Shown piece by piece: positions 7,964 to 38,556 of a stretch of 64,000 bases of DNA. How positions within the stretch are numbered: the stretch's first letter is position 1; every line of letters starts with the position of its first letter. Position numbers and translations under genes: made by a program. The notes beneath the pieces are model-generated. The model was not told where the DNA came from, did no database searches, and saw nothing but the letters and a program-made list of their open reading frames with translations. Where the stretch lies: NCBI RefSeq assembly GCF_040869035.1, contig NZ_CP162100.1:1302001-1366000 (forward strand), given 5' to 3'. This stretch comes from Vibrio sp. NTOU-M3. Its GTDB lineage: Bacteria > Pseudomonadota > Gammaproteobacteria > Enterobacterales > Vibrionaceae.

Positions 7964-8057
7964 AACTCTTCTCTCTTTTTCTTTCATTCTGCTTTAACTG
8001 CAGCATTTATAAATTGATGCAGTGATACTAGCATCGAATCGTGGCTTTTTACGAATC

Positions 8058-8072
8058 TGAAATGCTGTTTTA
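8058..8072. promoter_or_regulatory. KdgR-like operator, kduI side
   Basis: TGAAATGCTGTTTTA fits T(G/A)AAA-N5-TTT(C/T)A. It lies 95 bases ahead of the kduI start, between kduI and kdgK. Confidence 0.75.
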
Positions 8073-8113
8073 TAATCATGCTCACATAATTAAAATTATC
8101 AAATCAAATAAAA

Positions 8114-8128
8114 TGAAAAAGCGTTTCA
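8114..8128. promoter_or_regulatory. KdgR-like operator, kdgK side
   Basis: TGAAAAAGCGTTTCA is a near-perfect inverted repeat, 68 bases ahead of the kdgK start. It is the best candidate to control the kdgK-eda-sulP-galE-galT operon. Confidence 0.78.
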
Positions 8129-8195
8129 AATATATTGCGTGATTTTTGCTCGTTAAGTATAGTTGCTGAGAACTAACGACATTGGTGTGAAGAAA

Positions 8196-9134: not shown

Positions 9135-9151
9135 TTTCTAGGAGAAACACC

Positions 9152-11430: not shown

Positions 11431-11434
11431 GTTG

Positions 11435-12451: not shown

Positions 12452-12466
12452 TATCTAAAGGAAACT

Positions 12467-13646: not shown

Positions 13647-14408
13647 ATGGTATTAGATGCTTTTAATCTAGAGGGTAAAGTTGCATTGGTAACTGGGTGT
13701 AATACCGGGCTAGGGCAAGGCATGGCAGTCGCACTGGCGCAAGCTGGCTGCGATATTGTTGGCGTGAATTACTCAGATGCGGAAGATACACCACAACAAG
13801 TTGAAGCGGTTGGACGTAAATTCCATGCGATTACCGCCAATCTGAGTGATCAGTCAGTCATTACCTCAGTGGTCGATCAAGCTGTTAGCCTCGCAGGGCG
13901 TGTCGACATATTGGTAAACAACGCAGGTATTATCCGCCGTAATGATGCGATCGATTTCAGTGAGAAAGACTGGGACGACGTAATGGATCTCAATGCCAAA
14001 ACCGTCTTCTTCATGAGCCAAGCTGTTGCTCGTCAATTCCGCTCGCAACAATCGGGTGGCAAAATCATCAATATTGCGTCTATGTTGTCATTCCAAGGTG
14101 GAATTCGTGTGCCTTCTTATACGGCTTCGAAAAGTGCCGTCATGGGTCTGACACGGTTAATGGCTAATGAGTGGGCAGCAGAAGGTATCAACGTCAATGC
14201 AATAGCACCCGGATACATGGCAACGAACAACACACAAGCGCTCCGCGCCGACGAAGAACGCAATCAGGCTATTTTGGAACGCATTCCTGCTAATCGTTGG
14301 GGGCTACCAAGCGACTTAGCTGGACCTGTGGTCTTTTTAGCGTCTCCGGCATCGGATTATGTCAACGGTTATACGGTGGCGGTTGATGGTGGTTGGCTCG
14401 CTCGATAG
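13647..14408 (+). CDS. kduD: 2-dehydro-3-deoxy-D-gluconate 5-dehydrogenase
   Basis: A classical short-chain dehydrogenase of 253 residues that reduces DKII to KDG with NAD(P)H. It has TGCNTGLGQG for the nucleotide, NNAG, the catalytic Ser in NIASMLSFQGG, and SYTASKSAV (Y-x3-K). It matches KduD in length and along its whole chain (MVLDAFNLEGKVALVTG at the start, NGYTVAVDGGWLAR at the end). It has its own KdgR box and terminator, so it is a single-gene unit, third in the uronate branch. Confidence 0.96.
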   Translation: MVLDAFNLEGKVALVTGCNTGLGQGMAVALAQAGCDIVGVNYSDAEDTPQQVEAVGRKFHAITANLSDQSVITSVVDQAVSLAGRVDILVNNAGIIRRNDAIDFSEKDWDDVMDLNAKTVFFMSQAVARQFRSQQSGGKIINIASMLSFQGGIRVPSYTASKSAVMGLTRLMANEWAAEGINVNAIAPGYMATNNTQALRADEERNQAILERIPANRWGLPSDLAGPVVFLASPASDYVNGYTVAVDGGWLAR

Positions 14409-14471: not shown

Positions 14472-14576
14472 TAAATTGTGACCGAGCTATGCGTTTATTA
14501 ATAATGATAACGATAGACTATAGGTAATACATAAATCATCCCTTTTCTTTACCCAGTAAAGATGTTGAGAGTTAAT

Positions 14577-15746
14577 ATGAGCGAATCTATAACACTGCGT
14601 CCGTTACCTGCCGTACTCGACGAGCAAAGAGTGCTGAATCACTTATCAACGGTGGTCGAGTCTGTCAAAAGAAACATCCCTAAGATTGGTGAACGTAATC
14701 CGAAAATTGGCACAGAAAACAACCAGTGGCAATACTGTGATCAATTTGATTGGGTGTCTTCATTCTGGACCGGTGAATTGTGGTTATGCTACCAAATGAC
14801 CGCAGAGCAGCAGTTTAAAAACAGCGCTAAGCTGCGCAAGCGTTATTTTGCCGATATGTTGCTAGATCCGTTCTGGCTTGATCATGACCTTGGTTTTCAA
14901 TACAGCTTAAGCTGTGTGGCTGATTATCGTTTGACCGGCGATGAGGAGTCTAAAATGATGGCGATTCGCGCGGCCGATCATCTGATTCATCGTTTTCGCA
15001 AGATCGGTGGTTACATCGTTGCGTGGAATGATACCCATCCATTAGGGCCGGAAATCACACAAGGTAAATCGATTATCGATTCACTGCAAAATACAGCCTT
15101 GTTGTTCTGGGCGTCCGAGGTGACAGGGTCACCTGTATATGCGCAAGCAGCAAGAACCCACAGTGAGACGTTAGCAAAACACATTGTTCGTGAAGACTAT
15201 TCGACTTACCACTCTTTCAACTTTGATCCGGTAACCCAACAGCCAATCAAAGGGGAAACCTTCCAAGGTTATGCAGACGAATCTTGTTGGGCTCGCGGTC
15301 AATCTTGGGCGGTACATGGCTTTGCTCAAACGTATCTATACACAGGGGACGAGCAGTTCCTAACGCTTGCTAAAAAACTGGCTCAATACGCTGTTGAGCA
15401 GATCTCTGATGATGGTGTGCCAGTGTGGGATTATTCGTTACCTGCCAACGAAATCCAATACAAAGACAGTTCAGCAGGCGCGATCACTGCAGCAGGTTTA
15501 TTATTGATTTCTCAGTGTATTACCGATGCAGAAGAAGCTAAGCAATACCGTGATTGGGGCCTATATTTGCTCCAAGGCTTAATCGACACCTGTGATGTAA
15601 CCCATGATGAAAAAGCGCTGGGCTTATTGGCTCATGGTGCATCTTTCGTGAAGGTAGGATTGTGCGACAACATGCTGCCTTATGGTGATTACTACTACCT
15701 TGAAGCACTCATGCGTGCGAATGGTTACCAGAAGTTCTTCTGGTAA
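14577..15746 (+). CDS. GH88 unsaturated glucuronyl hydrolase
   Basis: Hydrates and cleaves the 4,5-unsaturated glucuronate from the non-reducing end of lyase products, releasing amino sugar and an unsaturated monouronate. The (alpha/alpha)6 fold residues are visible: WTGELWLCYQ, the first catalytic Asp D104 in HDLGFQYSLS, and the second, D168, in IIDSLQNTALLFWAS. The pocket segment ESCWARGQSWAVHGFAQTY also matches. No signal peptide, so it acts in the cytoplasm on imported oligosaccharides. I choose ATG 14577 (389 residues) because GAGAG lies at good spacing, rather than ATG 14562. It is the first gene of an operon with GH112, PL8 and kdgF. Confidence 0.94.
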   Translation: MSESITLRPLPAVLDEQRVLNHLSTVVESVKRNIPKIGERNPKIGTENNQWQYCDQFDWVSSFWTGELWLCYQMTAEQQFKNSAKLRKRYFADMLLDPFWLDHDLGFQYSLSCVADYRLTGDEESKMMAIRAADHLIHRFRKIGGYIVAWNDTHPLGPEITQGKSIIDSLQNTALLFWASEVTGSPVYAQAARTHSETLAKHIVREDYSTYHSFNFDPVTQQPIKGETFQGYADESCWARGQSWAVHGFAQTYLYTGDEQFLTLAKKLAQYAVEQISDDGVPVWDYSLPANEIQYKDSSAGAITAAGLLLISQCITDAEEAKQYRDWGLYLLQGLIDTCDVTHDEKALGLLAHGASFVKVGLCDNMLPYGDYYYLEALMRANGYQKFFW

Positions 15747-15782: not shown

Positions 15783-15808
15783 ATTGACCCAACATTTTGG
15801 AGCTTATC

Positions 15809-18043: not shown

Positions 18044-20092
18044 ATGATTTCGCAGCACTTGACGCAAATTCAATCTGCTGTTGTCGATGAAGTCTCATTG
18101 CAACAAATCACGTTGATTCCAAGAGATCAATGGCATCAGAATGTCCAGCAATGGCAACGAGAATTTTCTCGTTCTTTCGGCTGGCGTGATATTCCGCTAT
18201 CCGAAGCAGAACAAGATGGACAAGTGATTCACTGCTATTTGCAGCGAGTCCTGACATTGGCGTGTGAATACCACAGCTCACAATCACCATTGGCCGCAGA
18301 ATACGCACTTCAAGCCTTAGACTATTGGTATGAAGTCAATCCACAGAACTGGAACTGGTGGTGGAACCAAATTGGCAGGCAACGTCTGCTTGGCCCAATT
18401 GCATTGATGCTAGCCCCCATTTTACCGGACGATCTCAAAGCTCAAATGAAAGCAGACTTGCCAGATGAGGCGACGATGACGGGGGCAAATAAAGCGGATT
18501 TGGCGCACGGCATGGCCTTTGGTGCGTTGTTGACCGGCAATGAAGCCACCTTTGAAGCGGCAATGAATGCCATTTGTGAAACCATTGAGGTGACAGAAGG
18601 AGAAGGCATTCAGGCTGATTACTCCTATCAGCAACATGGGCCACAGTTACAAAATGGGGGCTATGGCGAGTCATTTATTAATGTTGCTTTGCCTTGGGCG
18701 TATGTGACAAGCAATACCCCGTTTAGTTTTCCACTTAAGCTACAACGATTACTCGGCGAGTATTATTTACGTGGTACGGTGTGGATGACGCGTAATGGCT
18801 ATTGGGATTACAACGTGTGTGGCCGAGCGATTGCAAAGCCAGATCTAGAAAAGCCGTTTGGCCGCCAAATATTATGTGCGCAAGCCAGAATGCTACGCGC
18901 CTTATTTCCCCAGTATTCCTATTTTCTTGAGAGTTATATTGGGCACCTCAACGGAGAAACCTATCCCTTTGCGGGCTTTAAGCACTTTTGGTGTTCTGAT
19001 TACGCTGTTTCAGCCAACAGTAAATATGCGGTAACGGTGAAAGGCAACTCGCAACGTACCAACCCAATCGAAACAGGTAATCAGGAAAACTTACTTGGTT
19101 TTTGGCTTGGCTTTGGCAGCATGAATATTGGTGCCACGGGATTGGAATATCGTGACATTTTCCCATATTGGGATTGGCGTCGCGTGCCTGGAGTCACTAA
19201 TCCTCAAGTCGCGATGCCCGCTCATGAGTGGGGTCGGGTCGAACAACAAACGCATTGGACGGGTGGCGTGTCAAATGGTCGTTGGGGCATTTTTACATTT
19301 GAGCTTGATGTGCAAGAGACCCAAGGGCTGAAATCTTGGTTTTTCTTTGATGACATGGTCATTGCATTGGGTGCAGGGATTTGTTCTAGCCATGAAGAAG
19401 AGATTCGAACCACCATCAACCAATGCCACTTTGAACAAACGTTATGGCGTGATGGTGTATCTGATGCAGGGGCAATTAAAGGCGATGCTCGTGACTGGGT
19501 TCATCATGGAAAAATCGGTTATGTGCTGCACGGCGGCGTAGCGCAACTCAAATGTGAAGAGCGTGGGTCTAACTGGTATCGTATTAATCACCATTTAAGT
19601 GAAGAACCCGTCAGTGGCGAGGTGTTTGAGTTGACCATTTCTCATGGAATAAAACCCAATAACGCCAGTTACCAATACACGATATTGCCGGGAGCGACCG
19701 CCAGCGATACACAAGCGTACGCTAACGCACCTCAAGCAAACATCATTGCTAATCAGCGTGATGTTCAGGCGGTGCAACACCATGAGCGGATCGGGTGCGT
19801 CTTTTATCGTCCGACCTCGCTGGATTTGGGCAATGGTCTTGAAATCACCGTGGACGAACCCTGTGTACTTGCCTGTGAAGCAGAACCTCATGGTTACAGT
19901 GTGTCCGTTGCGACACCGGGCCGCGCAACCGTGGTTGAGATTATCTTCAGTCAAGAAGGGCATCAATACCCACTTACCGTCGAAACGCACGCAGGCAATG
20001 GTCGACTGGGCGAAAGTGGTTTTTACTCTATTTACACCAACAATATCGATCATGGAGAGTTAAGGAGAGAACATGACCTTTGCAATGGATAA
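18044..20092 (+). CDS. Cytoplasmic PL8 chondroitin/hyaluronan lyase
   Basis: A 682-residue polysaccharide lyase of family 8, which eliminates hexosaminyl-beta-1,4-uronate bonds and leaves unsaturated disaccharides. The alpha-toroid is N-terminal (WNWWWNQIGRQRLLGPIALML) and carries the Asn of TGANKADLAHG, catalytic H198 in YSYQQHGPQL and Y207 in GGYGESF. The beta-sandwich domains follow (NPIETGNQENLLGFWLGFGS, SHGIKPNNASYQYTILPG). The N-terminus has no signal peptide, unlike the paralogue at 20707, so it should act on imported oligosaccharides. Its last 20 bases overlap kdgF. Confidence 0.93.
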   Translation: MISQHLTQIQSAVVDEVSLQQITLIPRDQWHQNVQQWQREFSRSFGWRDIPLSEAEQDGQVIHCYLQRVLTLACEYHSSQSPLAAEYALQALDYWYEVNPQNWNWWWNQIGRQRLLGPIALMLAPILPDDLKAQMKADLPDEATMTGANKADLAHGMAFGALLTGNEATFEAAMNAICETIEVTEGEGIQADYSYQQHGPQLQNGGYGESFINVALPWAYVTSNTPFSFPLKLQRLLGEYYLRGTVWMTRNGYWDYNVCGRAIAKPDLEKPFGRQILCAQARMLRALFPQYSYFLESYIGHLNGETYPFAGFKHFWCSDYAVSANSKYAVTVKGNSQRTNPIETGNQENLLGFWLGFGSMNIGATGLEYRDIFPYWDWRRVPGVTNPQVAMPAHEWGRVEQQTHWTGGVSNGRWGIFTFELDVQETQGLKSWFFFDDMVIALGAGICSSHEEEIRTTINQCHFEQTLWRDGVSDAGAIKGDARDWVHHGKIGYVLHGGVAQLKCEERGSNWYRINHHLSEEPVSGEVFELTISHGIKPNNASYQYTILPGATASDTQAYANAPQANIIANQRDVQAVQHHERIGCVFYRPTSLDLGNGLEITVDEPCVLACEAEPHGYSVSVATPGRATVVEIIFSQEGHQYPLTVETHAGNGRLGESGFYSIYTNNIDHGELRREHDLCNG

Positions 20093-20706: not shown

Positions 20707-23277
20707 ATGAAATTTAAAATCACTCCAAAAAGTTGGGTGCTCCCAGCACTATTAATATGTCAGCCAGCACTGGCCACAGAGCTTACGACATTATCGCAAC
20801 GTGTTGCGCCGGATTTTGCTGAATCCATGTCAAATAAGTTAACCAGCAAAGGTGAAAACATAGACCAACTTGCAGCGCAATATGTGGCTTCACAGCAAGC
20901 CAATGGCAGTTGGGCGGACATTGACTACAGTCTGATCCCAACACAAGAAGCGCCAGTTCGCGCTCACTTAGACCGTATCCATATCCTTTCTTCCGCTGCA
21001 TTTCTTAATAACGATGTGAATGCTGCTCAAGCCGCTATTTCAGCCCTTTATTATTGGTACTCTGCGGATCGAACCAATAAAAACTGGTGGTGGAATGAAA
21101 TAGGCAAGCAGCTACGCTTAGGTCCCTCTGCGTTAATGTTGGGTGATCAACTGCCAACGGATTTGAACCGATTGATTGCGGCAGACATGCCATCAGAGCC
21201 TTATAAAACGGGTGCGAACAGAACGGACTTATCAAAAGGCGTCATATTTGGTGGTTTATTGAATCAGGATGCTTTGCAAGTCGAAAGAGGTTTGAATGGC
21301 ATTGAAGAAACCATCGTGGTGACTGAAGACGAAGGTGTTCAGTCGGATTACTCTTTCCAGCAGCATGGCCCGCAATTGTATATTGGTGGCTATGGTGAAG
21401 TGTTCTTTGGCGCAGCCTCCTATTGGGCGTACCAAGTGCGTGATCTACAGTGGAAGTTTGCCGCGGACAAGATCGATGTACTGGTGAACTACTTTCTTGA
21501 AGGTGTTCGCTGGGCCAATAGCCATGGCACCCTTGATTACAACAGTCGAGGTCGTGGTATCAGTCGAGTCAGCACCATAGACCCGACTACCTTAATCAAG
21601 CAAAGTGATTACATTGCGGCACTAAAACCGACTCGCCAATCAGAAGCGCTCGCCTTTAAACAACACTTGCAAGGTATGAATTCAGGCCTTCAAGGTTACA
21701 AACAATTTTGGCGCTCTGACTATGCAGCGAAGGTGGGCGCAGACCACTTTATCGGCATTAAAATGAACTCCAACCGTATTGAGCCAACCGAAGCGGGGAA
21801 TGGTGAAAACTTGCTGGGCAACTGGCTTGGTTTTGGTAGCACTTTCATTATGCAACGTGGAGATGAATACCATAACCTCTTCCCAGTTTGGAACTGGGGT
21901 TTAGTACCGGGTGTCACGTCTCCTCAGTTTGCTACCAAGCCAGCGGATTGGGGTCGCATTGAAATGCAAACCTCGTTTGTTGGTGGCGTTTCGGACGGGC
22001 AGTATGGTGTTTCAGTGATGGACATGGACGCCTATTCGACTCAAGCGAAAAAGGCATGGTTTAGCTTTAAAGATGAATTGGTTGCCCTTGGGGCAGGGAT
22101 TAAATCTACCCGCTCGGAGTATGTGAACACGACCGTTAACCAAACGCGTTTAAATGGCCCGGTTACTGTGGATGGGCAAGTGTATCAAAAAGGCAACCGT
22201 CAACTGGTGGGGTCATCATGGGTACATCATGACGGTGTCGGTTATGTATTCCCTACATCTTGGTATGGTCATATGGAAAATGACACCAAGCAAGGTAATT
22301 GGCGTAGCATTAACAAGGGGCAGCCAGATGAGGTAGTCTCAGATGATGTGTTTATGTTGCGAATAGGGCACAGCTGGCAACCGACTAACGCATCCTATCA
22401 GTACATTGTGTTACCGGAAAAAAGTGCCAGTGATACTCAAGCTTACGCGGCTAACCGACCAGTGACAGTCTTAAGTAATACCAGTTTGTTACAAGCGGTC
22501 ACGCATACATCGCTTAACATCACGGGCATTGTATTCCACAAAGCAGGAAGCCTTGTGCTGAGTAGTGGTAAAGAAATTACTGTGGATAAACCAAGTGTCG
22601 TTCTTGTTAATGAATCCAAACCTGAGCCAGAAATTACTCTTTCGACACCGGGGTTAGGAACCTTGGTTAAGGTGACGTTAACCGATAACGGTCAAACTCA
22701 AACTACAACGGTAGCAACATCTGCTGAAAAACGCTGGTTAGGTAAAAGTGTGCCTGTGGATTTCTCATCACCAGCTTTACCTTCGCAGAAGCAAACCATC
22801 ACAACCAAGTTTGATGCGTTTGTTCGCGACGGAAAGTACGTCGGGCAAAGTTATGGCAATAATAGCTATTTGGTCGTGAAAAAAGACGGTGTGGGTTACA
22901 GCCGCAAAACAGTGTTGCAGTTTGATCTTGCTGGATTAGATGTGACCAGTACATCCAAAGCGACATTGCGCTTGCATGTGCGCAACGTGAACACGGACCC
23001 AAGTCGTGATATTACTGTCTCTCGTCTGTCGAATACTGATTGGCAGGAGAGTAATATTTCTTGGAACACCTTACCTGCTGTAAATAAAACGGGCGCAACT
23101 GTGACAGTTACACCGAACCAAATAGGCTCATGGTTAGAAGTCGATGTGAGCGAGCTCATTACCACAGGTAGTCTTGGCTTAGTGTTAGAAAATAAAGGTT
23201 CAGCAAGCAGTAAATCTGATGTGAGTTTCTCGAGTCGCGAAAGTGGCAATGGACCTCAGCTTATCATCACACCATAA
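20707..23277 (+). CDS. Secreted PL8 lyase with C-terminal DNRLRE domain
   Basis: An 856-residue extracellular lyase that starts breakdown of chondroitin sulfate or hyaluronan. Residues 1-23 are a signal peptide (LLICQPALATE at the cut). The PL8 catalytic domain follows: Asn in TGANRTDLSKG, H220 in YSFQQHGPQLYIGG, Y229 in GGYGEVF, then NRIEPTEAGNGENLLGNWLGFGS. Two beta-sandwich domains run to about residue 690. From about 700 to 856 there is a DNRLRE-type beta domain (KTVLQFDLAGLD, TLRLHVRNV, ISWNTLPAV, PQLIITP), known from many marine polysaccharide enzymes and likely a binding or anchoring module. The cytoplasmic PL8 lacks it. It is a single-gene unit with its own KdgR box. Confidence 0.95.
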   Translation: MKFKITPKSWVLPALLICQPALATELTTLSQRVAPDFAESMSNKLTSKGENIDQLAAQYVASQQANGSWADIDYSLIPTQEAPVRAHLDRIHILSSAAFLNNDVNAAQAAISALYYWYSADRTNKNWWWNEIGKQLRLGPSALMLGDQLPTDLNRLIAADMPSEPYKTGANRTDLSKGVIFGGLLNQDALQVERGLNGIEETIVVTEDEGVQSDYSFQQHGPQLYIGGYGEVFFGAASYWAYQVRDLQWKFAADKIDVLVNYFLEGVRWANSHGTLDYNSRGRGISRVSTIDPTTLIKQSDYIAALKPTRQSEALAFKQHLQGMNSGLQGYKQFWRSDYAAKVGADHFIGIKMNSNRIEPTEAGNGENLLGNWLGFGSTFIMQRGDEYHNLFPVWNWGLVPGVTSPQFATKPADWGRIEMQTSFVGGVSDGQYGVSVMDMDAYSTQAKKAWFSFKDELVALGAGIKSTRSEYVNTTVNQTRLNGPVTVDGQVYQKGNRQLVGSSWVHHDGVGYVFPTSWYGHMENDTKQGNWRSINKGQPDEVVSDDVFMLRIGHSWQPTNASYQYIVLPEKSASDTQAYAANRPVTVLSNTSLLQAVTHTSLNITGIVFHKAGSLVLSSGKEITVDKPSVVLVNESKPEPEITLSTPGLGTLVKVTLTDNGQTQTTTVATSAEKRWLGKSVPVDFSSPALPSQKQTITTKFDAFVRDGKYVGQSYGNNSYLVVKKDGVGYSRKTVLQFDLAGLDVTSTSKATLRLHVRNVNTDPSRDITVSRLSNTDWQESNISWNTLPAVNKTGATVTVTPNQIGSWLEVDVSELITTGSLGLVLENKGSASSKSDVSFSSRESGNGPQLIITP

Positions 23278-23323: not shown

Positions 23324-24790
23324 TTAACGTGTTTGCTTGCTGGTAATGACATCTTGCAGTTTTTCATGCAGTTCAACCACTTTCTCTGGCATCTCTTTGG
23401 CTAAGTTAACCACTTGGCCCACGTCATCGTGCAGATCAAACAACTGAGGTTTTGGTATGTTGCCTTTTTCGTTGCCCGTATATTGGCAGACAAAGTCATC
23501 ATCATGCGGTGGAATGTAAGCAAAACGCTGATCGCGAAAAACCTTTTTGTATTGCATGCCTTCCAACACCATGCTATCGCGGCCATGGGCATCTTTTCCT
23601 GTGAGCGCATCGAGCAATGGCAGGCTGTCTGGCGCTTCATCTTCACCAAGTGAATAACCGGTAAGCTGAGCAAAACAGTGGTACAAATCGACATGGTTAA
23701 ACAGAGCGTTGCTTTCTCCTGAGCCAGCACCATTTGGCCAGCGAACAATAAATGGAACTCGCGTGCCTCCTTCAAATAAGCTGTATTTACCGCCGCGGAG
23801 TGGCCCCGCCATTTGATGTTCACCATTCTGCTCTACAGCCAGATCCTTGTAGCCATCATTCAGTACAGGGCCATTATCACTTGAGAAAATAACGATGGTA
23901 TCGTCTGAAAGGTTAAGCTCATCAAGCTTGTCGAGTACTTGGCCAATGCACCAATCCATTTCCACAATCACATCACCACGAACACCATGCGGGGTAACGC
24001 CACGAAAACGTGGGTTAGGGATGCGCGGAACATGAGGTTGATGCAAAGCGTAATAGAGGAAGAATGGCTTGTCTTGGTTTTGTTCGATGAAATCGATGGC
24101 TTTGTTGGAAAAGACTTCGCCCATGGTCTCATCATCCCAAATGGCAGCTTGCCCACCACGCATATGGCCAATGCGGCTAACGCCATTGATAATGGTGCCA
24201 TCGTGACCGTGATCGTACATGACATCAAGCAACTCAGGATTGTGCCTACCGGTAGGGACGCCCTCAAAAGCTTGGTCCCAATCATAGGTGACGTCAATTG
24301 GGTCATTCGGGTCTAAGTTTTCCACATGACGATTGTCGATATACACGCACGGGACGCGATCGTTTGTCGCCGCCATGATAAAGGAATCATCAAAACCAAC
24401 ATCGTTCGGCGTACCATGAATTTCTTGGTTGAAATCCAAATCGCCGTTGCCCAATCCCAAATGCCATTTGCCGACAATCGCTGTGCGGTAGCCAACTTTT
24501 TGGAACATTTTAGGCATGGTTTCATCATGGATACCGATGATCTGTGGCGCATCTCCGGGTAATACAGCTGCATCTGGGTTCCGCCATGGATAAGACCCCG
24601 TCAATAAACTATAGCGAGAAGGGGTGCAGGTTGCTGCGGTGGCATAACCTTGGTGGAATTTGATGCCTTCCTCCGCCAGCTTGTCTAGATTTGGTGTTGG
24701 GATGTCATTGGCGCCATAACAACTTAAATCGCCAAAGCCCAAGTCATCGGCGTACATAATAATGACATTGGGGTGTTTATTCTCACTCAT
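23324..24790 (-). CDS. Cytoplasmic Cys-type sulfatase, GALNS/arylsulfatase-like
   Basis: A 488-residue family S1 sulfatase. Metal Asp pair in IIMYADDLGFGD, signature CTPSRYSLLTG with C55 as the formylglycine precursor, GKWHLG, and the second metal site FSSDNGP. The overall look is N-acetylgalactosamine-6-sulfatase/arylsulfatase A, so release of a GalNAc sulfate from chondroitin oligosaccharides is plausible, but position specificity cannot be read. No signal peptide. It follows the sulfatase at 24794 by 3 bases, with an AAGGA site overlapping that gene's stop region, so the two are co-transcribed. Confidence 0.9.
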   Translation of the reverse strand: MSENKHPNVIIMYADDLGFGDLSCYGANDIPTPNLDKLAEEGIKFHQGYATAATCTPSRYSLLTGSYPWRNPDAAVLPGDAPQIIGIHDETMPKMFQKVGYRTAIVGKWHLGLGNGDLDFNQEIHGTPNDVGFDDSFIMAATNDRVPCVYIDNRHVENLDPNDPIDVTYDWDQAFEGVPTGRHNPELLDVMYDHGHDGTIINGVSRIGHMRGGQAAIWDDETMGEVFSNKAIDFIEQNQDKPFFLYYALHQPHVPRIPNPRFRGVTPHGVRGDVIVEMDWCIGQVLDKLDELNLSDDTIVIFSSDNGPVLNDGYKDLAVEQNGEHQMAGPLRGGKYSLFEGGTRVPFIVRWPNGAGSGESNALFNHVDLYHCFAQLTGYSLGEDEAPDSLPLLDALTGKDAHGRDSMVLEGMQYKKVFRDQRFAYIPPHDDDFVCQYTGNEKGNIPKPQLFDLHDDVGQVVNLAKEMPEKVVELHEKLQDVITSKQTR

Positions 24791-24793
24791 TGA

Positions 24794-26278
24794 TTATCCT
24801 TTATTGCTAAACAGGTCATAGGGGAGTAGGTGCCCAAGCACTTGTTGGCTCGCCCATGGGTCTTCAGTTCGAACTAATTCTTCTGCCAAGGCTCTGAGCA
24901 AACGACGCACCGCAGGTGAGTCCGGCTGAAAAGGCAGATTATTCATTTGGTAGGGATCTTGCTGATCATCAAATAATAAGCTTCGGCTTAAATGGTAGTT
25001 ACCATCAATTTCGAGAGCCAAAGTATGGCTGGCCGTTTTTATGCCACGGCTAATTGGGAAGTAGTTAATTACCCTGCCATCTTGGTCGGTGGGACCATCC
25101 ACATTGCGTAGATACAAGGCGCAGTTAGGAAAACTAGTGAAATTCACCGGATCTAACAATGCGCTGGACAAATCTCTGCCATCGATATCATCAGGCCATG
25201 TCCCTTGTAATCCCATTGTTGCTAACAGGGTTGGCATAATGTCTGCGCTGCTAAGAAAAGCAGGATGATGTTTGCTTTCTTTTTGTTGTGCCGTTTTAAG
25301 CAAAAATGGGACGGAAAAGGCTTCGTTATAAATGCAGTTTTTGGCATCTTCCAAAGCGTGACTGCATAAGGTTTCACCATGATCACTAGTAAACACAATG
25401 ACAGTGTTATCCCATTCTCCGATTTCTTTTAATGCATCAACAATGCGGCCGAATTCTTTATCGACCCCCGTGACATTTGCAAAGTAGTAGGCGGCACTGT
25501 TTGCTTTGTCCATGCGCGCATCGGCATTGTCTCGCACCAATAGCTGCTCGGCATCACGGTGTTGGTAGTGTTGCCAGTCTTCCTCTCGGCAATCTTGCAA
25601 GCTGGAATATGGGCTGTGCGGCGGGTTCATGGAAACAAATAGGGCAAAAGGTTTGTTGCTGTCGCGCTGATTTTGCTGATTCTGGAGGTAACTGATCGCT
25701 TTATCCGCTTCATGCTCCGCCGACCATTTTCTTGGTTCGTAACGGTTTCCTAAAGTGTCGTAGTAATGAGGGTTACAATGTTGGTCAAATGTACCGTAGC
25801 CATACCAATAGTGAATACCGTGCCTTCTTTGTGGCTCGGTGTAGGAGTCCCATGCCGGACGGTTTGGGTCGACATAACGCCCAGGATTGATTGGATCATT
25901 AGCCGTGGGCAAATCTAAATGCCATTTACCGATATAACCGACATCATACCCAGCTTGGGCCAGTGCATCGGTAAAGCAGAATGCCGTTTGTGGCAACTCA
26001 GATTGAACCCGTTGGGAGTTACAGTTTAAAGGAACGCCACTTTTAGCTGGGAATTGTCCGGTCATTAAACTTCCACGATGGGGACTGCACACAGGGCAGT
26101 TACTAACGGCATTTGGTAGTAAGGTGGCATGTTGAGCAAAAGCATCAAGATTTGGCGTGATAACAGGGTCACCTTTGCCCGCTAATAAGGTTTGGTGCTG
26201 TGCCTGTTGCCAGATCCCCAAAGACATTAAGCGAAATTGATCCGGAAATACGTACAACAAGTTGGGTTTCTTTTTCAT
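24794..26278 (-). CDS. Cytoplasmic Cys-type sulfatase (second)
   Basis: A 494-residue S1 sulfatase of a different subgroup. The opening is PNLLYVFPDQFRLMSLG, where the usual second Asp is changed as in the PDQ-type sulfatases. The signature is CSPHRGSLMTGQ with C64 for formylglycine, GKWHLDLP, and FTSDHGETL for the C-terminal metal site. No signal peptide, so it is cytoplasmic. It is the first gene of a two-gene minus-strand operon under the box at 26323. The exact sulfate ester it acts on is not predictable from the sequence. Confidence 0.9.
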   Translation of the reverse strand: MKKKPNLLYVFPDQFRLMSLGIWQQAQHQTLLAGKGDPVITPNLDAFAQHATLLPNAVSNCPVCSPHRGSLMTGQFPAKSGVPLNCNSQRVQSELPQTAFCFTDALAQAGYDVGYIGKWHLDLPTANDPINPGRYVDPNRPAWDSYTEPQRRHGIHYWYGYGTFDQHCNPHYYDTLGNRYEPRKWSAEHEADKAISYLQNQQNQRDSNKPFALFVSMNPPHSPYSSLQDCREEDWQHYQHRDAEQLLVRDNADARMDKANSAAYYFANVTGVDKEFGRIVDALKEIGEWDNTVIVFTSDHGETLCSHALEDAKNCIYNEAFSVPFLLKTAQQKESKHHPAFLSSADIMPTLLATMGLQGTWPDDIDGRDLSSALLDPVNFTSFPNCALYLRNVDGPTDQDGRVINYFPISRGIKTASHTLALEIDGNYHLSRSLLFDDQQDPYQMNNLPFQPDSPAVRRLLRALAEELVRTEDPWASQQVLGHLLPYDLFSNKG

Positions 26279-26433: not shown

Positions 26434-27645
26434 ATGCAATCACTGATCATTCCAACCGCAAAGGTCAAAGCGAAAAGGCCTTTTCATATACTTGCTAAGC
26501 CTGTGGGGCCTTTGTGTAATCTCGATTGTGAATACTGCTTTTATCTGGATAAATCGGAGTATTACCCAGAAACAAAGCGGTTTGATATGTCGTTGGAAAC
26601 TCTAGAAGCTCACGTAAAAAACTACATTGAGAGTCAGCCGGCAGGATGTCGAGAAGTGACCTTTGGCTGGCAAGGGGGAGAACCGACTATGCGTGGTATT
26701 GATTTTTATCGTCACGCGGTTGCGTTGCAGAATAAGTACCGACGTTCAGGCATGGCGATAGTCAATACAATCCAAACCAACGGCGTGCTATTAAATGAAG
26801 AGTGGGCACAGTTTCTCAAGCAACATCGGTTTTTGGTGGGCATCAGTATTGATGGTGATGAAGAGCTGCATGATCATTACCGTAAGACACGTCGAGGGCT
26901 CGGCTCCTATCAACAGGTCATTCGAGGTTTACGTGTATTGCAAAAATACCAAGTAGAAACCAACATTCTGACGGTTATCCAAAACCATAATGGTGATTTT
27001 GGTAAGCGGGTATATCAGCATTTGAAAGCGCTAGGTGCGCAGTTTATTCAGTTTATCCCGATTGTTGAACCCGTTAAGGGAGAAGGGGTATCGAGCCGAA
27101 GTGTTTCACCTAAGCAGTTTGGCCAATTTATGATCGATGTGTTTGATGAGTGGCGCAAACACGATATTGGTCAGGTTTTTGTCAGTCATTTTGACAACGC
27201 GTTGGGTATGCATCTTGGCATGCCATCGTCGATTTGCGTTCATGCGCCCCAGTGCGGTGATAACTTAGTGATGGAACACAATGGTGATGTATACAGCTGC
27301 GATCACTTTGTTTATCCGGAGTTTAAAGTCGGCAATCTTACCCAGCAAGAGTATCCAGACTTAATTGAAACAAAGGTTCAGCAGCAATTTTCGAACCGCA
27401 AGCCTATTGGAACCCAGCACCACTGTTTAGGGTGCAGCCAACGCTCACTGTGTCATGGTGCTTGTCCGGCGCAGCGGATCGATTCAAATGGTGAGCTTTC
27501 TTTAACGGCTAAACATTATTTGTGTGAAGGATATTATGAGTTCTTTGCTTACTTGCGCCCATACCTCGATGCCATGGGCCACTGCATCCGGCGTAATATT
27601 TCACCGGCTTTCTACCCTAAGTTTTTAAACAGGCGCTCTGATTAA
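26434..27645 (+). CDS. Anaerobic-type sulfatase-maturating enzyme, radical SAM
   Basis: A 403-residue radical SAM enzyme that oxidises the Cys or Ser of the sulfatase signature to formylglycine in the cytoplasm. The SAM cluster is CNLDCEYCFYL (C28, C32, C35), preceded by FHILAKPVGPL as in anSME proteins. The SPASM region near the C-terminus carries the auxiliary-cluster cysteines (CVHAPQCGDN, YSCDHFVYPE, HHCLGCSQRSLCHGACP). All three sulfatases of the locus have Cys signatures and no leader, so they are its expected substrates. It is divergently transcribed from the sulfatase pair. Confidence 0.95.
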   Translation: MQSLIIPTAKVKAKRPFHILAKPVGPLCNLDCEYCFYLDKSEYYPETKRFDMSLETLEAHVKNYIESQPAGCREVTFGWQGGEPTMRGIDFYRHAVALQNKYRRSGMAIVNTIQTNGVLLNEEWAQFLKQHRFLVGISIDGDEELHDHYRKTRRGLGSYQQVIRGLRVLQKYQVETNILTVIQNHNGDFGKRVYQHLKALGAQFIQFIPIVEPVKGEGVSSRSVSPKQFGQFMIDVFDEWRKHDIGQVFVSHFDNALGMHLGMPSSICVHAPQCGDNLVMEHNGDVYSCDHFVYPEFKVGNLTQQEYPDLIETKVQQQFSNRKPIGTQHHCLGCSQRSLCHGACPAQRIDSNGELSLTAKHYLCEGYYEFFAYLRPYLDAMGHCIRRNISPAFYPKFLNRRSD

Positions 27646-27663: not shown

Positions 27664-29115
27664 TTAAATCACCGCCATCATACGATAGAACCAAGTGCAT
27701 AGTGGATCATGATATTGGCGCATTTCTTGATACATCTCAGCTAATAGCGTTTGCTTAACGTCGAGGTAATCAGGGTGGTCGATCAGGTTCTCCATTTCTT
27801 CAGGATCATGCGTGAGGTGATAAAGTTCGCTCTTTCCACTGGCGTTGAACACCAATTTGTATTCTTGATTGCGCCACATTCGCTGAGGGTATGGCGTAAA
27901 ATGCCCGTTTTGTTGGGCAAGAATTCCTTTTCTTGGTTGGTACACTTGGTCTCTTAACAGCGGCAATAGTGAGTGGCCGTCAAAAGATTCGGGTGTTTTT
28001 CCTGATGCCAAGTGCGCATAGGTTGCCGTGACGTCGTGTAGATAGACGAGCTCATTGTTTGTTGAGTTAGGAGAAGGGCTTTTGGGGTCTTTAATGATTA
28101 GCGGAATGCGGTAGGTTTGATCGAACATAAACTCACCTTTTTCAATCATACGGTGTGCGCCCATGGCGTCACCGTGATCAGCTGAGACCACCATAAACAT
28201 TTCGTCATAAAGGTTTTGTTGCTCTAGAAAATCGATCAATTTGCCTATCGCATCGTCAATTAGACTGATGTAACCCCAGTATTTACAGATGATTTGCTTC
28301 CATTCTTGTTCATCCAATGTCCACACGCCCCACATTTTTGCGATATTGGTGTAATGCTCGGGCTTGCCTTTCAATGGCGCATAAAAGCTTTTATCCAACG
28401 TGACCTGCTCAGGTTGATACATGGAAAAGTACGGCTCAGGGATCACACAAGGTGTGTGTGGGCCCCAAAAATTGAGCCATAACGTAAAGGGACGTTGCTG
28501 AGTAAGACACTGTTTGATGTGGCTGATCGCTTCATCAACTAAAAAGTAGGGGATAGACGCTTCAACAGGCGCACTGAGTCGCGCGTAAAACTCTTGAATT
28601 TGTAGATTAGGATTGTTGCCGAACGTGCACTCGGTTACGTGTGGGATTTCAAATCCCTTCTCATTAAGCCACTCCAAGTAACGATTGCCATTTTGGGGAA
28701 CACTATCAAAGGCAAGGTTTTGATAAACGCCGCTACCGGGGTAGGCATAACCATCGAAGTTGTGACCTACAAACCCATACTCACTGGGCAATTTTTTATG
28801 TCCAATGTGCCACTTTCCAATATAGAGATGCTGATGGTCCTCGAACTCTGAAATCAAATTTGCATCTTCGACGGGGACATCACATTTCTCACCTTCTTTG
28901 TCTGAGTTACACATGACGCCGTGATGCGATGGCATTTTTCCAGTAAAAAGCGACGTTCTTGATGGTGTACAGACTGACGATGCACAAAATGCTTGATTGA
29001 AGCGCATGCCATCAGCGGCGATCTTATCCATATTGGGTGTGTTGACAATGTCGTGTCCATAACATCCAAGCATATCTGCACGCGTTTGATCCATCAGAAG
29101 TAAAGCCAGATTCAT
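27664..29115 (-). CDS. Cytoplasmic Cys-type sulfatase (third)
   Basis: A 483-residue S1 sulfatase. It starts MNLALLLMDQTRADMLGCYG, where an Asp-Gln pair replaces Asp-Asp. The formylglycine signature is CTPSRTSLFTG with C49, then GKWHIG and VSADHGDAMG. The Asp-Gln and SADHGD motifs recall iduronate/choline-sulfatase-like subgroups. No signal peptide. It is a single-gene unit, divergent from the DUF2264 operon, with the box at 29133 just upstream. It is distinct in sequence from the other two, so the three probably remove different sulfate groups. Confidence 0.9.
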   Translation of the reverse strand: MNLALLLMDQTRADMLGCYGHDIVNTPNMDKIAADGMRFNQAFCASSVCTPSRTSLFTGKMPSHHGVMCNSDKEGEKCDVPVEDANLISEFEDHQHLYIGKWHIGHKKLPSEYGFVGHNFDGYAYPGSGVYQNLAFDSVPQNGNRYLEWLNEKGFEIPHVTECTFGNNPNLQIQEFYARLSAPVEASIPYFLVDEAISHIKQCLTQQRPFTLWLNFWGPHTPCVIPEPYFSMYQPEQVTLDKSFYAPLKGKPEHYTNIAKMWGVWTLDEQEWKQIICKYWGYISLIDDAIGKLIDFLEQQNLYDEMFMVVSADHGDAMGAHRMIEKGEFMFDQTYRIPLIIKDPKSPSPNSTNNELVYLHDVTATYAHLASGKTPESFDGHSLLPLLRDQVYQPRKGILAQQNGHFTPYPQRMWRNQEYKLVFNASGKSELYHLTHDPEEMENLIDHPDYLDVKQTLLAEMYQEMRQYHDPLCTWFYRMMAVI

Positions 29116-29132
29116 ACCTTATCCTATAAAAA

Positions 29133-29147
29133 TGAAATTGCGTTTTA
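29133..29147. promoter_or_regulatory. KdgR-like operator, third sulfatase
   Basis: TGAAATTGCGTTTTA, 18 bases ahead of the sulfatase start codon, close enough to overlap its transcription start or ribosome site. Confidence 0.75.
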
Positions 29148-29205
29148 ATTATATTGTTTCTTTCTGTCTGAAATTGTGAGCTGGGTGCTTGTTGAATTAA
29201 AAAAA

Positions 29206-29220
29206 TGAAACGTAGTTTTG
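29206..29220. promoter_or_regulatory. Weak KdgR-like half-matching site
   Basis: TGAAACGTAGTTTTG keeps both arms except the last base. It lies between two better sites and may be an accessory operator. Confidence 0.45.
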
Positions 29221-29238
29221 ATCTTCTTATCATAAATC

Positions 29239-29316: not shown

Positions 29317-31035
29317 GTGGCACTGAGTTTGAAACAGCTAACAAGTAATGAGTATGGATTTGCAGATCGGCCAAACACATTGGCAATGCTGGAGCGCATA
29401 GCGGAGCTTCAGATCCCGCTATTGATGTCGGCAACTCAAGATACCCCGCGCTTTAATAGTGCCGCGCATTATCCGCAGCCTGTTGCGAAGATTGAACATG
29501 TATGCCGTTTATTGTGGGGATTAGCCCCTGCTGGTGACATCGCGGTGCAGCAACAAATTCGTGAAATGATTGTTCAGGGATGTGATCCTGAAAGCGAACA
29601 CTATTGGCAAATGCCAACCCACTACGATCAAAGAGTGGTGGAAATGGCGTCTATCGCAACAGCGATAATTGATGCCCAAGTGTACTATTGGGACCCGTTA
29701 ACTGATAGTGAAAAACACGCATTAGCACGCTGGTTATTGACGGTAAAAGATCTAGAGCTACCACCGAATAATTGGCGTTGGTTTCGTATTCTTATTCTGA
29801 CGGCATTAGAACTGGTTGGTGCAAAGACAGAGCAACAAGTGCTGCAACGTGATCTCGCGTTTGTTGACGAGCTTTATCTTGCCGATGGTTGGTACCAAGA
29901 TGGGCGTGGCGGTGTTATCGATTACTACAACCCGTTTGCTTTTCAACTTTACGGCCTGATGTATGCGCGTTGGAGAAAAGGCGAGGGAGAACTTTGCCAG
30001 CGCTTAGTAAATCGTGCAGTTGAGTTTTCCCGTAGCTACCAATACTGGTTTGCCGAAGATGGTAAGCCGCTTTGCTACGGTCGCTCACTAAATTATCGCT
30101 TTGCTGGTGCCGCATTCTGGGTTGAGCTTGCTCGCTGCGGCCATCGTGATGTAGATATCGCACTTGCACGAACTTGTTGGCAGCAAACCATGCAGTGGTG
30201 GGCTAAGCAACCCATTTGGGACAGCAATGCGCAATTACTGCCGGGTTACGCTTATCCCAATTTGCTTACGAGTGAATTCTATACCAGTTACGCATCACCA
30301 ATGTTGGCGTTGAAAGCGTTCAATGCATTAGCTCTAAGTGAAGATCATCCATTCTGGCAAGCTCAATTGAAGCCATTATCGGACAGCATGACTCCAATGG
30401 CGATTGGCCAACATCACCAATTGGTTCGACGCGGTGGCAGTTATTTGATCACCAATGGTGCTAGCGCGAATGAATTACGAAATTGTGAAGACAAGTACGG
30501 CAAATTTGCTTACAGCTCAGATCATGGGCTTTGTGTAGAAAGCTGTCGCTGGATTGACCAAGGTTGGGCAGGAGACAACATTTTTGCCTTCCGCCATCCA
30601 GAAACTCAACAATGGTTTAGCCGTACCAAGAATACCGATAGCTACACTTTTGACGGTGCCCTGGTTTCCATTTGGCAGCCTTTTAATGGTTGCGAAGTGA
30701 AAACAACCCAAAGATTCACCAAGGACACGGAAGTCCGACTTCATCAAATAAAAGCTGATCAAGCATTGGATTTTGTGATGACGGGCTATGCAGTGAATTG
30801 TTGGAATGCTTGGTTTAGCCACCAACAACCAAGGGCTGCGAGAGTGGAGTCTGACGAATTATTTAGTGAACTGATAATGCTAGAAGGAAAAGCGGATACG
30901 TGCGTTTTTCCTTGTGCACCGAACACCAATTTAATGCATCCCCATGCAAGTGTTCCCGCTGTAACTGGGCGCGTTGTCGCCGGTGAAACGGTATTGCTGG
31001 TGGAAGTGCATGCTGGAAAACTTCCGGCTAATTAA
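29317..31035 (+). CDS. DUF2264-family protein of unknown function
   Basis: A 572-residue leaderless protein, probably cytoplasmic, with the features of DUF2264: LPPNNWRWFRILILTALE, DGWYQDGRGGVIDYYNPFAFQLYGLMYA near residues 190-215, and GKPLCYGRSLNYRFAGAAFW near 250. The N-terminal 350 residues are rich in paired helices and aromatic residues, as in (alpha/alpha) toroid enzymes. The C-terminal part (SYLITNGASANELRNCEDKYGKFAYSSDHG...) looks like beta-sandwich. That architecture resembles lyases and GH88-type hydrolases, but no known catalytic set was recognised. Start is GTG with AAGAGAG upstream, and in-frame ATG options were not found. It heads the importer operon (binding protein 45 bases on). 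A role in processing an imported GAG fragment is inferred only. Confidence 0.85.
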   Translation: MALSLKQLTSNEYGFADRPNTLAMLERIAELQIPLLMSATQDTPRFNSAAHYPQPVAKIEHVCRLLWGLAPAGDIAVQQQIREMIVQGCDPESEHYWQMPTHYDQRVVEMASIATAIIDAQVYYWDPLTDSEKHALARWLLTVKDLELPPNNWRWFRILILTALELVGAKTEQQVLQRDLAFVDELYLADGWYQDGRGGVIDYYNPFAFQLYGLMYARWRKGEGELCQRLVNRAVEFSRSYQYWFAEDGKPLCYGRSLNYRFAGAAFWVELARCGHRDVDIALARTCWQQTMQWWAKQPIWDSNAQLLPGYAYPNLLTSEFYTSYASPMLALKAFNALALSEDHPFWQAQLKPLSDSMTPMAIGQHHQLVRRGGSYLITNGASANELRNCEDKYGKFAYSSDHGLCVESCRWIDQGWAGDNIFAFRHPETQQWFSRTKNTDSYTFDGALVSIWQPFNGCEVKTTQRFTKDTEVRLHQIKADQALDFVMTGYAVNCWNAWFSHQQPRAARVESDELFSELIMLEGKADTCVFPCAPNTNLMHPHASVPAVTGRVVAGETVLLVEVHAGKLPAN

Positions 31036-31080: not shown

Positions 31081-33000
31081 ATGAACAATAACAAAAACTT
31101 ACCTCTACTAGGCAAGGTAGCGCTTGCGGTGGCCGCATCGGTATCTTTTTCCGCATGGGCAAATACGTACAGTGAAGCGCCTGCTTTGAAACAGCAAGTA
31201 GAAGCAGGACAGTTGCCTCCTGTGGCTGAGCGTTTGCCTGAAAACCCGCTAGTTGTTGAGCCATTTGAGTCTGTTGGCCAATATGGTGGTACGCTGAATC
31301 TTGTGGGTAAAGTGGTCGATAATGGTCACCGCATCCGTACGATCGCGTATGACAACCTATTCAATTTTGATGTTCACTACTCTAAGGTTGTACCGAACTT
31401 AGCCACTGGCTTTACGGCAAATGCTGAAAATACGGAATTCACCATTAACTTACGTAAAGGCGTTAAATGGTCTGACGGTGCACCGTTTACGGCAGAAGAT
31501 ATTGCTTATTACATCAATGACGTGATTGGCGACCCGGGCCATGCCGGTAACCGCCCGTTAGCACTGCCAACGCACGAAGCGGCGAAAGCGGAAGTGATTG
31601 ATAAGCATACAGTAAAAATTACGCTGGCGAAGCCAAATGGCTTGTTTATTCGCAGCTTAGCAACGGTGGATAGTGAAAGCTTTACCGCATTTCCGAAACA
31701 CTACTGTTCTCAATTCCTTCCGAAATACAATCCGAAAGCAGAAGAAAACGCGAAAGCAGCAGGCTTTGACTCTTGGCGTCAGTATTCTTCAACACGTTGT
31801 GAAGCGCATTACTTTATCGAGCACTACAACAATGTTGACCGCCCAGTATTGACGGCATGGAAAGTGAAAACACCACCAGGACCAAATGCCAGCTTTGCTG
31901 AGTTTGAGCGTAACCCGTATTACTGGCAAGTGGATACAAAAGGAAATCAGCTTCCTTACTTAGATAGCGTTCGCTGGCGTTACAGTGAAGACCAAGAAGA
32001 GATGGTTCTGCGTGCGGCGAATGGTGAGGCTGATTACCAGCACCGTCACATTGGTAAACCAAACTACCGTTCACTATTGATCGAAAACGAGAAGAAGAGC
32101 GGTTACACCTACGAGTTTCGTCCTAATACACGCAGTACCGAGCTGGCTATTGCACTGAACCAGACAGCAAAAGACCCGCTAAAACGTGAACTGTTTAGTA
32201 ATAAAGACTTCCGTATTGCACTGTCTCATGCGATTGACCGTGAAGAAATCAGCGAAACGGTTTTCTCCGGTGCGGTAGGGCCTTATCAAGCTGCGCCATT
32301 AGAGATTTCGCCATTCTATGATGAAGAAATGGCCACACAGTACACGGAATTTGATCAAGACAAAGCAAACAAGTTGTTAGACTCACTTGGTTTAACTAAG
32401 CGTGACAAAGAAGGTTACCGACTACTGAAGAATGGTGAGCGTCTGCGTATTGAAGCAATGTCGAAAGTTAATGACAAAGGCGTATTAGCTGATTCGCTTG
32501 AGTTGGTGAAAAACCAATGGAAAGACGTGGGTATCTTCCTTGATATCCGTGTGTTGGAAATCAACCATGTTATCAACCTTCGCCTAACCAATGACTTCGA
32601 CATGATCCCAATTGTTGGTGATGGTGGTGCGGGTATTATTGATGAAGCGCGTCACTATATGCCGTTTAGTCCTGAATCAACATGGGGTCTAGGTTATTAC
32701 CTTTGGGCGAACGAACCGGATAATGAGTTTGCCGTTGAACCACCAGCGCATGTGAAGAAACAGCTGGATCTTTGGAAGAAAGTGGAACAGACCTCTTCGC
32801 AAGAAATGCAGTTTAAGTACATGGAAGAAATCATCGATATTGCACAAGAGAATTTCTATGTGATTGGTACGGTAGAAGCGTTACCAGTGGGTGTTGTGGT
32901 CAACAATAAACTACGTAATATACCTGAAAACATGCCACAGTCATGGACATTCCCAACGCCTGGACCAATGCGAATGAGCCAGATTTGGAAGCAACAGTAA
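31081..33000 (+). CDS. Periplasmic oligosaccharide-binding protein, SBP family 5
   Basis: A 639-residue ABC substrate-binding protein of the peptide/oligosaccharide class (family 5). Signal peptide residues 1-27 (VALAVAASVSFSAWA). Family signature region LRKGVKWSDGAPFTAEDIAYYINDV near residue 125-145, and RIALSHAIDREEI near 375. At 639 residues it is longer than DppA (about 530), as in the sugar-using members such as the Vibrio chitobiose binding protein. It sits directly behind the DUF2264 gene and ahead of the permeases, so it is expected to deliver unsaturated GAG oligosaccharides. Confidence 0.92.
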   Translation: MNNNKNLPLLGKVALAVAASVSFSAWANTYSEAPALKQQVEAGQLPPVAERLPENPLVVEPFESVGQYGGTLNLVGKVVDNGHRIRTIAYDNLFNFDVHYSKVVPNLATGFTANAENTEFTINLRKGVKWSDGAPFTAEDIAYYINDVIGDPGHAGNRPLALPTHEAAKAEVIDKHTVKITLAKPNGLFIRSLATVDSESFTAFPKHYCSQFLPKYNPKAEENAKAAGFDSWRQYSSTRCEAHYFIEHYNNVDRPVLTAWKVKTPPGPNASFAEFERNPYYWQVDTKGNQLPYLDSVRWRYSEDQEEMVLRAANGEADYQHRHIGKPNYRSLLIENEKKSGYTYEFRPNTRSTELAIALNQTAKDPLKRELFSNKDFRIALSHAIDREEISETVFSGAVGPYQAAPLEISPFYDEEMATQYTEFDQDKANKLLDSLGLTKRDKEGYRLLKNGERLRIEAMSKVNDKGVLADSLELVKNQWKDVGIFLDIRVLEINHVINLRLTNDFDMIPIVGDGGAGIIDEARHYMPFSPESTWGLGYYLWANEPDNEFAVEPPAHVKKQLDLWKKVEQTSSQEMQFKYMEEIIDIAQENFYVIGTVEALPVGVVVNNKLRNIPENMPQSWTFPTPGPMRMSQIWKQQ

Positions 33001-37770: not shown

Positions 37771-38556
37771 ATGACTAACGGGAAACAACCTGAATCCGTC
37801 TCTTCTGTACTTAAAACATTTGGAATCTTACAAGCCCTTAGTACTCAAAAAGACATTGGTATTAGTGAACTGGCTCAGCGCCTGATGATGTCAAAGAGTA
37901 CGGTTTATCGCTTTTTGCAGACCATGAAAACTCTAGGCTACGTTGCTCAGGAAGGGGAAAGTGAAAACTACTCCTTAACACTGAAGCTATTTGAACTAGG
38001 TTCTACTGCCTTAGAGTACGTTGATTTGGTTGACCTTGCTGACATCGAAATGCGCCGTATTTCTGATCTAACAATGGAAGCATTGCACTTAGGCGCGCTG
38101 GATGGCGACCACATCATTTATATCCACAAAATTGACTCCAAGTACAACTTACGCATGCAGTCGCGTGTAGGCCGTCGTAACCCGCTTTATTCAACTGCGA
38201 TTGGTAAAGTGTTGCTGGCTGAGCGTGAAGAAGAGGAAGTAAAACGTATTCTTGAAGATGTGGAGTTTACTAAATCAACAGAGCGTACGCATGAGACGGT
38301 AGCGTCACTTATCGATGAGTTAGTCACTGTTCGTGAAGCGGGCTATGGTGAAGATAACGAAGAGCAAGAAGTTGGTCTGAGATGCTTAGCAGTACCGGTT
38401 TATGATCGCTTTAATAACGTGGTGGCGGGTATGAGTGTGTCTCTGCCGACCATTCGCTTTACAGAAGAGAAGAAAACAGAGTACATTGCGGAACTGCACG
38501 CGGCGGCGGCAAGAATCTCAGCCAAGCTGGGTTGCAAGGCATACCCACACGGTTAA
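37771..38556 (+). CDS. kdgR: KdgR-type IclR-family repressor
   Basis: A 261-residue regulator that closely follows E. coli and Dickeya KdgR. The N-terminal winged helix-turn-helix is SSVLKTFGILQALSTQKDIG with the recognition-helix stretch MMSKSTVYRFLQTMKTLGYV. The IclR effector domain carries HLGALDGDHIIYIHKIDS, GRRNPLYSTAIGKVLLA and GYGEDNEEQEVGLRCLAVPV. KdgR is released from DNA by KDG, an intermediate of the pathway encoded here. The multiple operator-like boxes in the locus fit its known site. It sits between the importer operon and the porin gene. Confidence 0.94.
   Translation: MTNGKQPESVSSVLKTFGILQALSTQKDIGISELAQRLMMSKSTVYRFLQTMKTLGYVAQEGESENYSLTLKLFELGSTALEYVDLVDLADIEMRRISDLTMEALHLGALDGDHIIYIHKIDSKYNLRMQSRVGRRNPLYSTAIGKVLLAEREEEEVKRILEDVEFTKSTERTHETVASLIDELVTVREAGYGEDNEEQEVGLRCLAVPVYDRFNNVVAGMSVSLPTIRFTEEKKTEYIAELHAAAARISAKLGCKAYPHG

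Follow-up and report, generated by a model that had tools for sequence, protein, structure and literature searches.

The GAG-catabolic locus of Vibrio sp. NTOU-M3 raises the question of which step is carried out by the DUF2264 protein encoded at the head of its importer operon. The locus lies in the window, by which we mean the whole stretch of 64,000 nucleotides that was analysed. An earlier note on this DNA had read the protein as a candidate for a new kind of GAG-catabolic enzyme that may act on an unusual substrate. The first half of that reading stands, in that the protein is very likely GAG-catabolic, lacks a leader and shares the regulatory signals common to the locus, while neither a new kind of enzyme nor an exotic substrate is needed to account for it.

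Gene neighbourhood and regulatory signals

The DUF2264 (formerly GH154) gene (29317..31035, + strand) encodes a protein of 572 aa, a predicted beta-D-glucuronate dehydratase. It begins with a GTG codon, for which a reading of the sequence places AAGAGAG ending 7 bases to the 5′ side, and in a 39-row alignment the column of the start shows at least 90% conservation. Pfam assigns residues 21-353 to PF10022 (DUF2264; E 4.9e-88, 296 bits against a curated cut-off of 25) and residues 366-562 to PF20938 (DUF2264_C; E 3.2e-16). At E up to 1 these were the only Pfam matches, with no Lyase_8, PF07470 or lyase domain found, and an NCBIfam search with the same protein gave no match. The genome (2 contigs, 4.86 Mb) holds this one DUF2264 match. 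The absence of a leader, as claimed earlier, agrees with our reading of the N-terminus by eye, where no signal-peptide-like features are seen, and the protein is presumably cytosolic.

The gene does head the operon of an ABC importer, and the spacing of 45 bases to the binding-protein gene given in the earlier note was confirmed. The solute-binding protein gene (SBP_bac_5, family 5; 31081..33000, +) is followed by two permeases (33374-34381 and 34385-35545, +), a fused double ATPase (35545-37245, +) and an IclR-family regulator, possibly KdgR (37771..38556, +). On the 5′ side, the downstream uronate steps are represented by KduI (- strand), a PfkB-family kinase (probable KdgK) and KDPG aldolase, together spanning 7127..9784, and by a short-chain dehydrogenase that is probably KduD (13647..14408, +). 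The DUF2264 gene lies 13.6 kb beyond the end of the gene for the GH88 unsaturated glucuronyl hydrolase (14562..15746, +), the predicted user of the dehydratase product. Among the solved unsaturated glucuronyl hydrolases that this GH88 matches is one named unsaturated chondroitin disaccharide hydrolase. Two PL8 lyases come next, one in which no leader is seen (18044..20092, +) and one with a leader-like N-terminus and a CBM96 (20707..23277, +). They are followed by a sulfatase with S1_15 sulfatases and, in third place, a GalNAc-6-O-sulfatase (6s20) among its strongest solved matches (23324..24790, -), and by a second that among solved structures best matches an endo-4-O-sulfatase (6s21; 24794..26278, -). 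A radical SAM/SPASM protein, probably an anaerobic sulfatase-maturating enzyme (26434..27645, +), precedes a third sulfatase with an exo-2S-iota-carrageenan sulfatase as its best solved match (27664..29115, -), and an OprD-type porin is also found among the neighbours. Genome G000 contains six Lyase_8 matches, two of them reported in one open frame of 2407 aa (contig 2, 1190481-1194917), a possible double-PL8 protein.

Between GH88 and the leaderless PL8, about 50 bases 3′ of the GH88 gene, lies a leaderless GH112 lacto-N-biose phosphorylase (15797-17995) that has no obvious place in the breakdown of the chondroitin main chain, and the DUF2264 protein is therefore not the only member of the locus without an assigned step, as had been supposed. 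Genes recognised by eye as galE- and galT-like are present at 11432-13519. It had also been held that all uronate steps were already filled, which proved wrong. The genome has a single GH88 (the sole PF07470 match in its 2 contigs and 4.86 Mb) and gave no GH2_C match over the same sequence. Because GH88 takes unsaturated ends and no GH2_C was matched, the step at saturated ends was open, and the DUF2264 protein most likely serves this saturated non-reducing end. A GH79C search of the genome found no match, but the controls were without a match too; four GH20 matches were found.

The regulatory signature was sought with a KdgR-type palindrome whose consensus we take to be AATGAAACNNNGTTTCATT. 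Seven sites with three mismatches or fewer occur in the window against 0.54 expected, a number reached in none of 100 shuffles. By position, each lies roughly 30 to 170 bases 5′ of a catabolic gene, namely the PfkB kinase, probable KduD, GH88, the secreted PL8, the radical SAM maturase and, twice, the DUF2264 gene. The two sites of the latter (29131..29149 and 29204..29222) carry three mismatches each, and the first could also serve the divergent sulfatase. The earlier placement of the gene under a KdgR box is thus borne out at the level of a sequence signature. In Vibrio albus (L030), an IclR gene follows DUF2264, and importer genes were not detected in the fetched DNA.

In a comparison with 15 Vibrionaceae loci (L003-L017), few genes of the locus diverge as fast as the DUF2264 gene, whose median identity is 54% and whose identity is the single lowest in 9 of the 15. 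Its homologue in Vibrio natriegens is 62-63% identical. The other genes have medians of 66-88% (2 to 15 loci each), except for the leaderless PL8 at 41% (4 loci, some being paralogue matches).

Family membership and the active site

In a search of solved-structure sequences at E up to 10, the DUF2264 protein matched three, 9o4u (single-sequence E 1.8e-17), 9nwf (1.3e-16) and 8oi4, deposited as "Beta-D-glucuronic acid dehydratase", "Glucuronate dehydratase" and "Beta-galactosidase", respectively. A profile from a 113-row alignment (112 of the 120 homologues listed, of 634 found; P0001, P0008, P0025, P0040, P0043, P0044, P0106 and P0115 were kept out as near-copies, fragments or by choice) matched the same three at E 1.2e-44, 5.6e-43 and 1.2e-47, with one further match at E 0.26, which is chance level.

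The family has recently been given a reaction. BcGDH, the DUF2264 (formerly GH154) protein of Bacteroides caccae PUL25 (PDB 9nwf and, by name, 9o4u), acts on chondrosine, whose saturated terminal GlcA it turns into a 4,5-unsaturated residue; this residue is then removed by GH88, an enzyme acting on unsaturated ends (PMC12269599, 2025). The activity was followed by A232, LC-MS and a GH88 follow-up, and the enzyme is judged not to be a glycoside hydrolase, after inconsistent aryl-glycosidase activity in early preparations (PMC12269599). Ten residues were each changed to Ala and no mutant had measurable activity, a loss that may overstate the role of each residue because chondrosine is a poor substrate (PMC12269599). 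The mechanism proposed has one Tyr as the acid and another as the likelier base, with an Arg helping, and its likeness to the mechanism of the alginate lyase Alg17C is pointed out (PMC12269599).

All ten of these residues (E74, R78, N176, N177, W178, F181, Y229, R285, Y289 and Y354) are identical in the Vibrio protein, where they correspond to E60, R64, N151, N152, W153, F156, Y204, R256, Y260 and Y322, with E60 and R64 placed through the profile alignment to the solved homologues. Eight of the ten columns are invariant over the 113 rows, W153 is kept in 112 and N151 in 72. The protein is thus most likely, from its sequence, a further member of the reassigned DUF2264/GH154 dehydratase family, and the idea of a new enzyme kind gives way, as the structure of a family member has been solved, a reaction has been assigned to the family and the active site matches throughout.

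Besides family and active site, the two proteins share a setting in a chondroitin locus with GH88, but they differ in several respects. BcGDH is a single-domain protein of about 400 aa, whereas the Vibrio protein carries DUF2264_C; Tyr175, which sits in a mobile loop of BcGDH and contacts the second sugar, is replaced by Pro150; and the Bacteroides PUL, with PL35 and GH109, contrasts with a Vibrio locus built on an ABC importer, PL8 and KdgR-like boxes (PMC12269599). A second domain is described, from a predicted structure, for BT_3677 of Bacteroides thetaiotaomicron, the founding GH154, which we set beside the Vibrio protein by description; it dehydrates methyl-GlcA and is described as having no chondrosine activity (PMC12269599).

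Two further systems resemble the locus as a whole. Haloarchaeal loci combine GH154, GH88, a sulfatase, a lyase and an ABC importer in one GAG locus, but lie on archaeal plasmids, cite the dehydratase role from the Bacteroides work and have no Vibrio counterpart in the text covered (PMC13260240). The hyaluronate locus of Vibrio alginolyticus LWW-9 shares the PL8 pair, GH88 and the uronate steps, but has a PTS importer instead of an ABC importer, and "DUF" is absent from the main text of its description (PMC8222515). Among literature on GH154 with Vibrio, no title names a Vibrio enzyme.

Association with GH88 within and beyond the Vibrionaceae

In a sample of 296 Vibrionaceae genomes drawn from the larger group, DUF2264 is found in 76 and GH88 in 93, with 73 carrying both. 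GH88 is present in 73 of the 76 genomes with DUF2264 as against 20 of the 220 without, counts that ignore kinship among interrelated genomes, and since the genomes are related, the Fisher p of 1.6e-46 overstates the case. Three genomes carry DUF2264 without GH88; GH88 does not need DUF2264, given that 20 genomes carry it alone. PL8 occurs in 62 of the 76 DUF2264 genomes and also in 14 genomes without DUF2264.

Pairing with GH88 or GH105 in the genome is usual for the DUF2264 dehydratases without strictly defining them. The two genes also tend to lie near each other. For the long-form DUF2264 genes (565-625 aa), GH88 is within 50 kb in 31 of 33 and within 10 kb in 15; one of the two exceptions comes from a genome that is 74% complete, in which no GH88 was found, and the other has its GH88 on another contig. 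For the short form, GH88 lies within 50 kb for 34 of 47 rows, two of the rows being one gene split over two frames, while a single DUF2264 gene of 660 aa has no GH88 within 50 kb. Some adjacent GH88 matches fall below the Pfam cut-off, and three of them (L083, L085 and L086) were confirmed by a profile of GH88 homologues (120 listed, of 2928 found). The Vibrionaceae proteins fall into two main forms. One is about 573-616 aa long and has weakly scoring GH88s (about 390-413 aa) nearby; the other, of about 480-553 aa, occurs near high-scoring PF07470 members of about 350-415 aa that are possibly GH105-like. These two forms may serve different polysaccharides.

A scan of genome contigs with the DUF2264 protein as a single sequence found no match. 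Scanning with the alignment gave at least 588 relatives; the best 80, representing 79 distinct loci, were used, and the neighbourhood counts therefore reflect the closest members of the DUF2264 family. Fifty-seven of the 79 loci lie outside the Vibrionaceae, in Rhizobiales, Bacilli, Clostridia, a haloarchaeon and others. Among these 57, GH88 is present in the fetched DNA at 37 and within 3 kb at 31, and in 27 of the latter it abuts DUF2264 or is at most 114 bases away, one of the 27 (L051) being a frame of only 110 aa. The GH88 profile had no match in the fetched DNA at the other 20 loci, several of them on short contigs. At the Vibrionaceae loci the count is 6 of 22, as GH88 there is often situated outside the 10-kb flank. 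When 41 of these genomes were searched in full, 40 gave a GH88 match and one did not.

At three loci, from Rhizobiales (L022), a haloarchaeon (L077) and Clostridium (L040), ten frames apiece, the GH88 among them, were compared with Pfam at E up to 1e-8. In all three, GH88 and DUF2264 have ABC sugar importer genes next to them, and no lyase family was matched in the frames scanned at this threshold. At L022, three of the ten frames had no family match, one being the GH88 (recognised by the custom profile only) and one a frame of 688 aa; at L077 two frames had none, and L040 also carries a GH2. These importer units without a lyase match suggest a possible lyase-free use, and judging from the three loci the DUF2264/GH88 pair may substitute for a beta-glucuronidase even where no lyase is at hand.

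Proposed function and competing readings

We propose with good confidence that the protein is a cytosolic beta-D-glucuronate dehydratase that acts on the saturated GlcA ends of imported chondroitin or hyaluronan and feeds GH88. The adjacent ABC importer would bring in chondroitin (or hyaluronan) di- and oligosaccharides, and those with a saturated GlcA at the non-reducing end, whether an original chain end or a product of the hydrolytic hyaluronidases of other organisms, would be bound by the DUF2264 protein. By extrapolation from the B. caccae homologue, Y204 would be the likely base that takes the C5 proton, helped by R256, and the 4-hydroxyl would be lost with Y260 as the acid. The resulting 4,5-unsaturated uronate would then be released by the GH88 of the locus and finished by KduI, KduD, KdgK and the aldolase, so that the DUF2264 and GH88 pair would replace a beta-glucuronidase. 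Two PL8 lyases, sulfatases, the maturase and the porin in the neighbourhood indicate chondroitin sulfate, and the natural substrate is therefore most likely a chondroitin or hyaluronan oligosaccharide, imported and ending in saturated GlcA. The identity of the leaving sugar is less certain, because DUF2264_C is present here and the two-domain BT_3677 acts on 1-O-methyl-GlcA and not on chondrosine.

We consider it unlikely that the same dehydratase chemistry is directed at another natural substrate, be it a glucuronide other than a GAG, an IdoA epimer or the terminal GlcA-beta-1,3-Gal found in the linkage region. The aglycone preferences of BT_3677 and BcGDH do differ (PMC12269599), the extra domain and Pro150 set the Vibrio protein apart from BcGDH, a GH112 phosphorylase sits in the same locus, and the three related units have no lyase match among their scanned neighbours; however, most enzyme neighbours (the PL8 pair and the GalNAc-6-O- and endo-4-O-sulfatase-like sulfatases) fit main-chain chondroitin, and the GH88 of the locus is similar to a solved chondroitin disaccharide hydrolase. 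A more specific version, which we regard as a long shot, has the two-domain protein working at the linkage region, where it would dehydrate the GlcA of the terminal GlcA-beta-1,3-Gal that trimming leaves behind. GH88 would remove the product, and GH112 would then recover the newly accessible beta-1,3-linked galactose in the form of Gal-1-phosphate, to be used by the galE/galT-like genes; if true, bacteria would have a full pathway for the proteoglycan linker. The earlier note had looked to a non-canonical linkage, the dermatan epimer or the linker for the substrate, and recognition of the dehydratase family led us to abandon an exotic substrate as the favoured reading. None of these is needed, because the family has an assigned reaction, the dehydration of saturated GlcA, and the active site matches; they may be extra or alternative substrates.

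Hydrolysis of terminal GlcA by a true beta-glucuronidase, as in the original GH154 reading, is improbable. The family was first assigned as a beta-glucuronidase/galactosidase, and early BcGDH preparations had the inconsistent activity already mentioned (PMC12269599); 8oi4 still bears its beta-galactosidase name, and GH2_C is without a match in the genome. Against these points, the BcGDH report attributes no glycoside hydrolase activity to the enzyme, finds its active-site architecture not typical of a glycoside hydrolase and describes both BcGDH and BT_3677 as dehydratases (PMC12269599), and the link to GH88 is expected for a dehydratase and not needed for a glucuronidase. The likeness of the two-tyrosine mechanism to that of Alg17C could be taken to favour an exo-acting polysaccharide lyase or some other helical-toroid carbohydrate enzyme, but the solved homologue loses the 4-hydroxyl of the terminal residue and leaves the glycosidic bond in place (PMC12269599), and the Vibrio protein has no Pfam lyase domain, which makes this reading very improbable indeed.

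The dehydratase that feeds GH88 is thus the reading we prefer, and the DUF2264 protein very probably belongs to GAG catabolism, where it fills a missing step. A step is thereby proposed for a gene that sources in several vibrios call just a "DUF2264 domain-containing protein". The dehydratase and GH88 cycle, which was described in 2025 from a Bacteroides PUL and has been invoked for loci of haloarchaea, would extend to an ABC-importer pathway of the Vibrionaceae, and the GH88-DUF2264-importer units found elsewhere would represent a beta-glucuronidase substitute that may run without a lyase.
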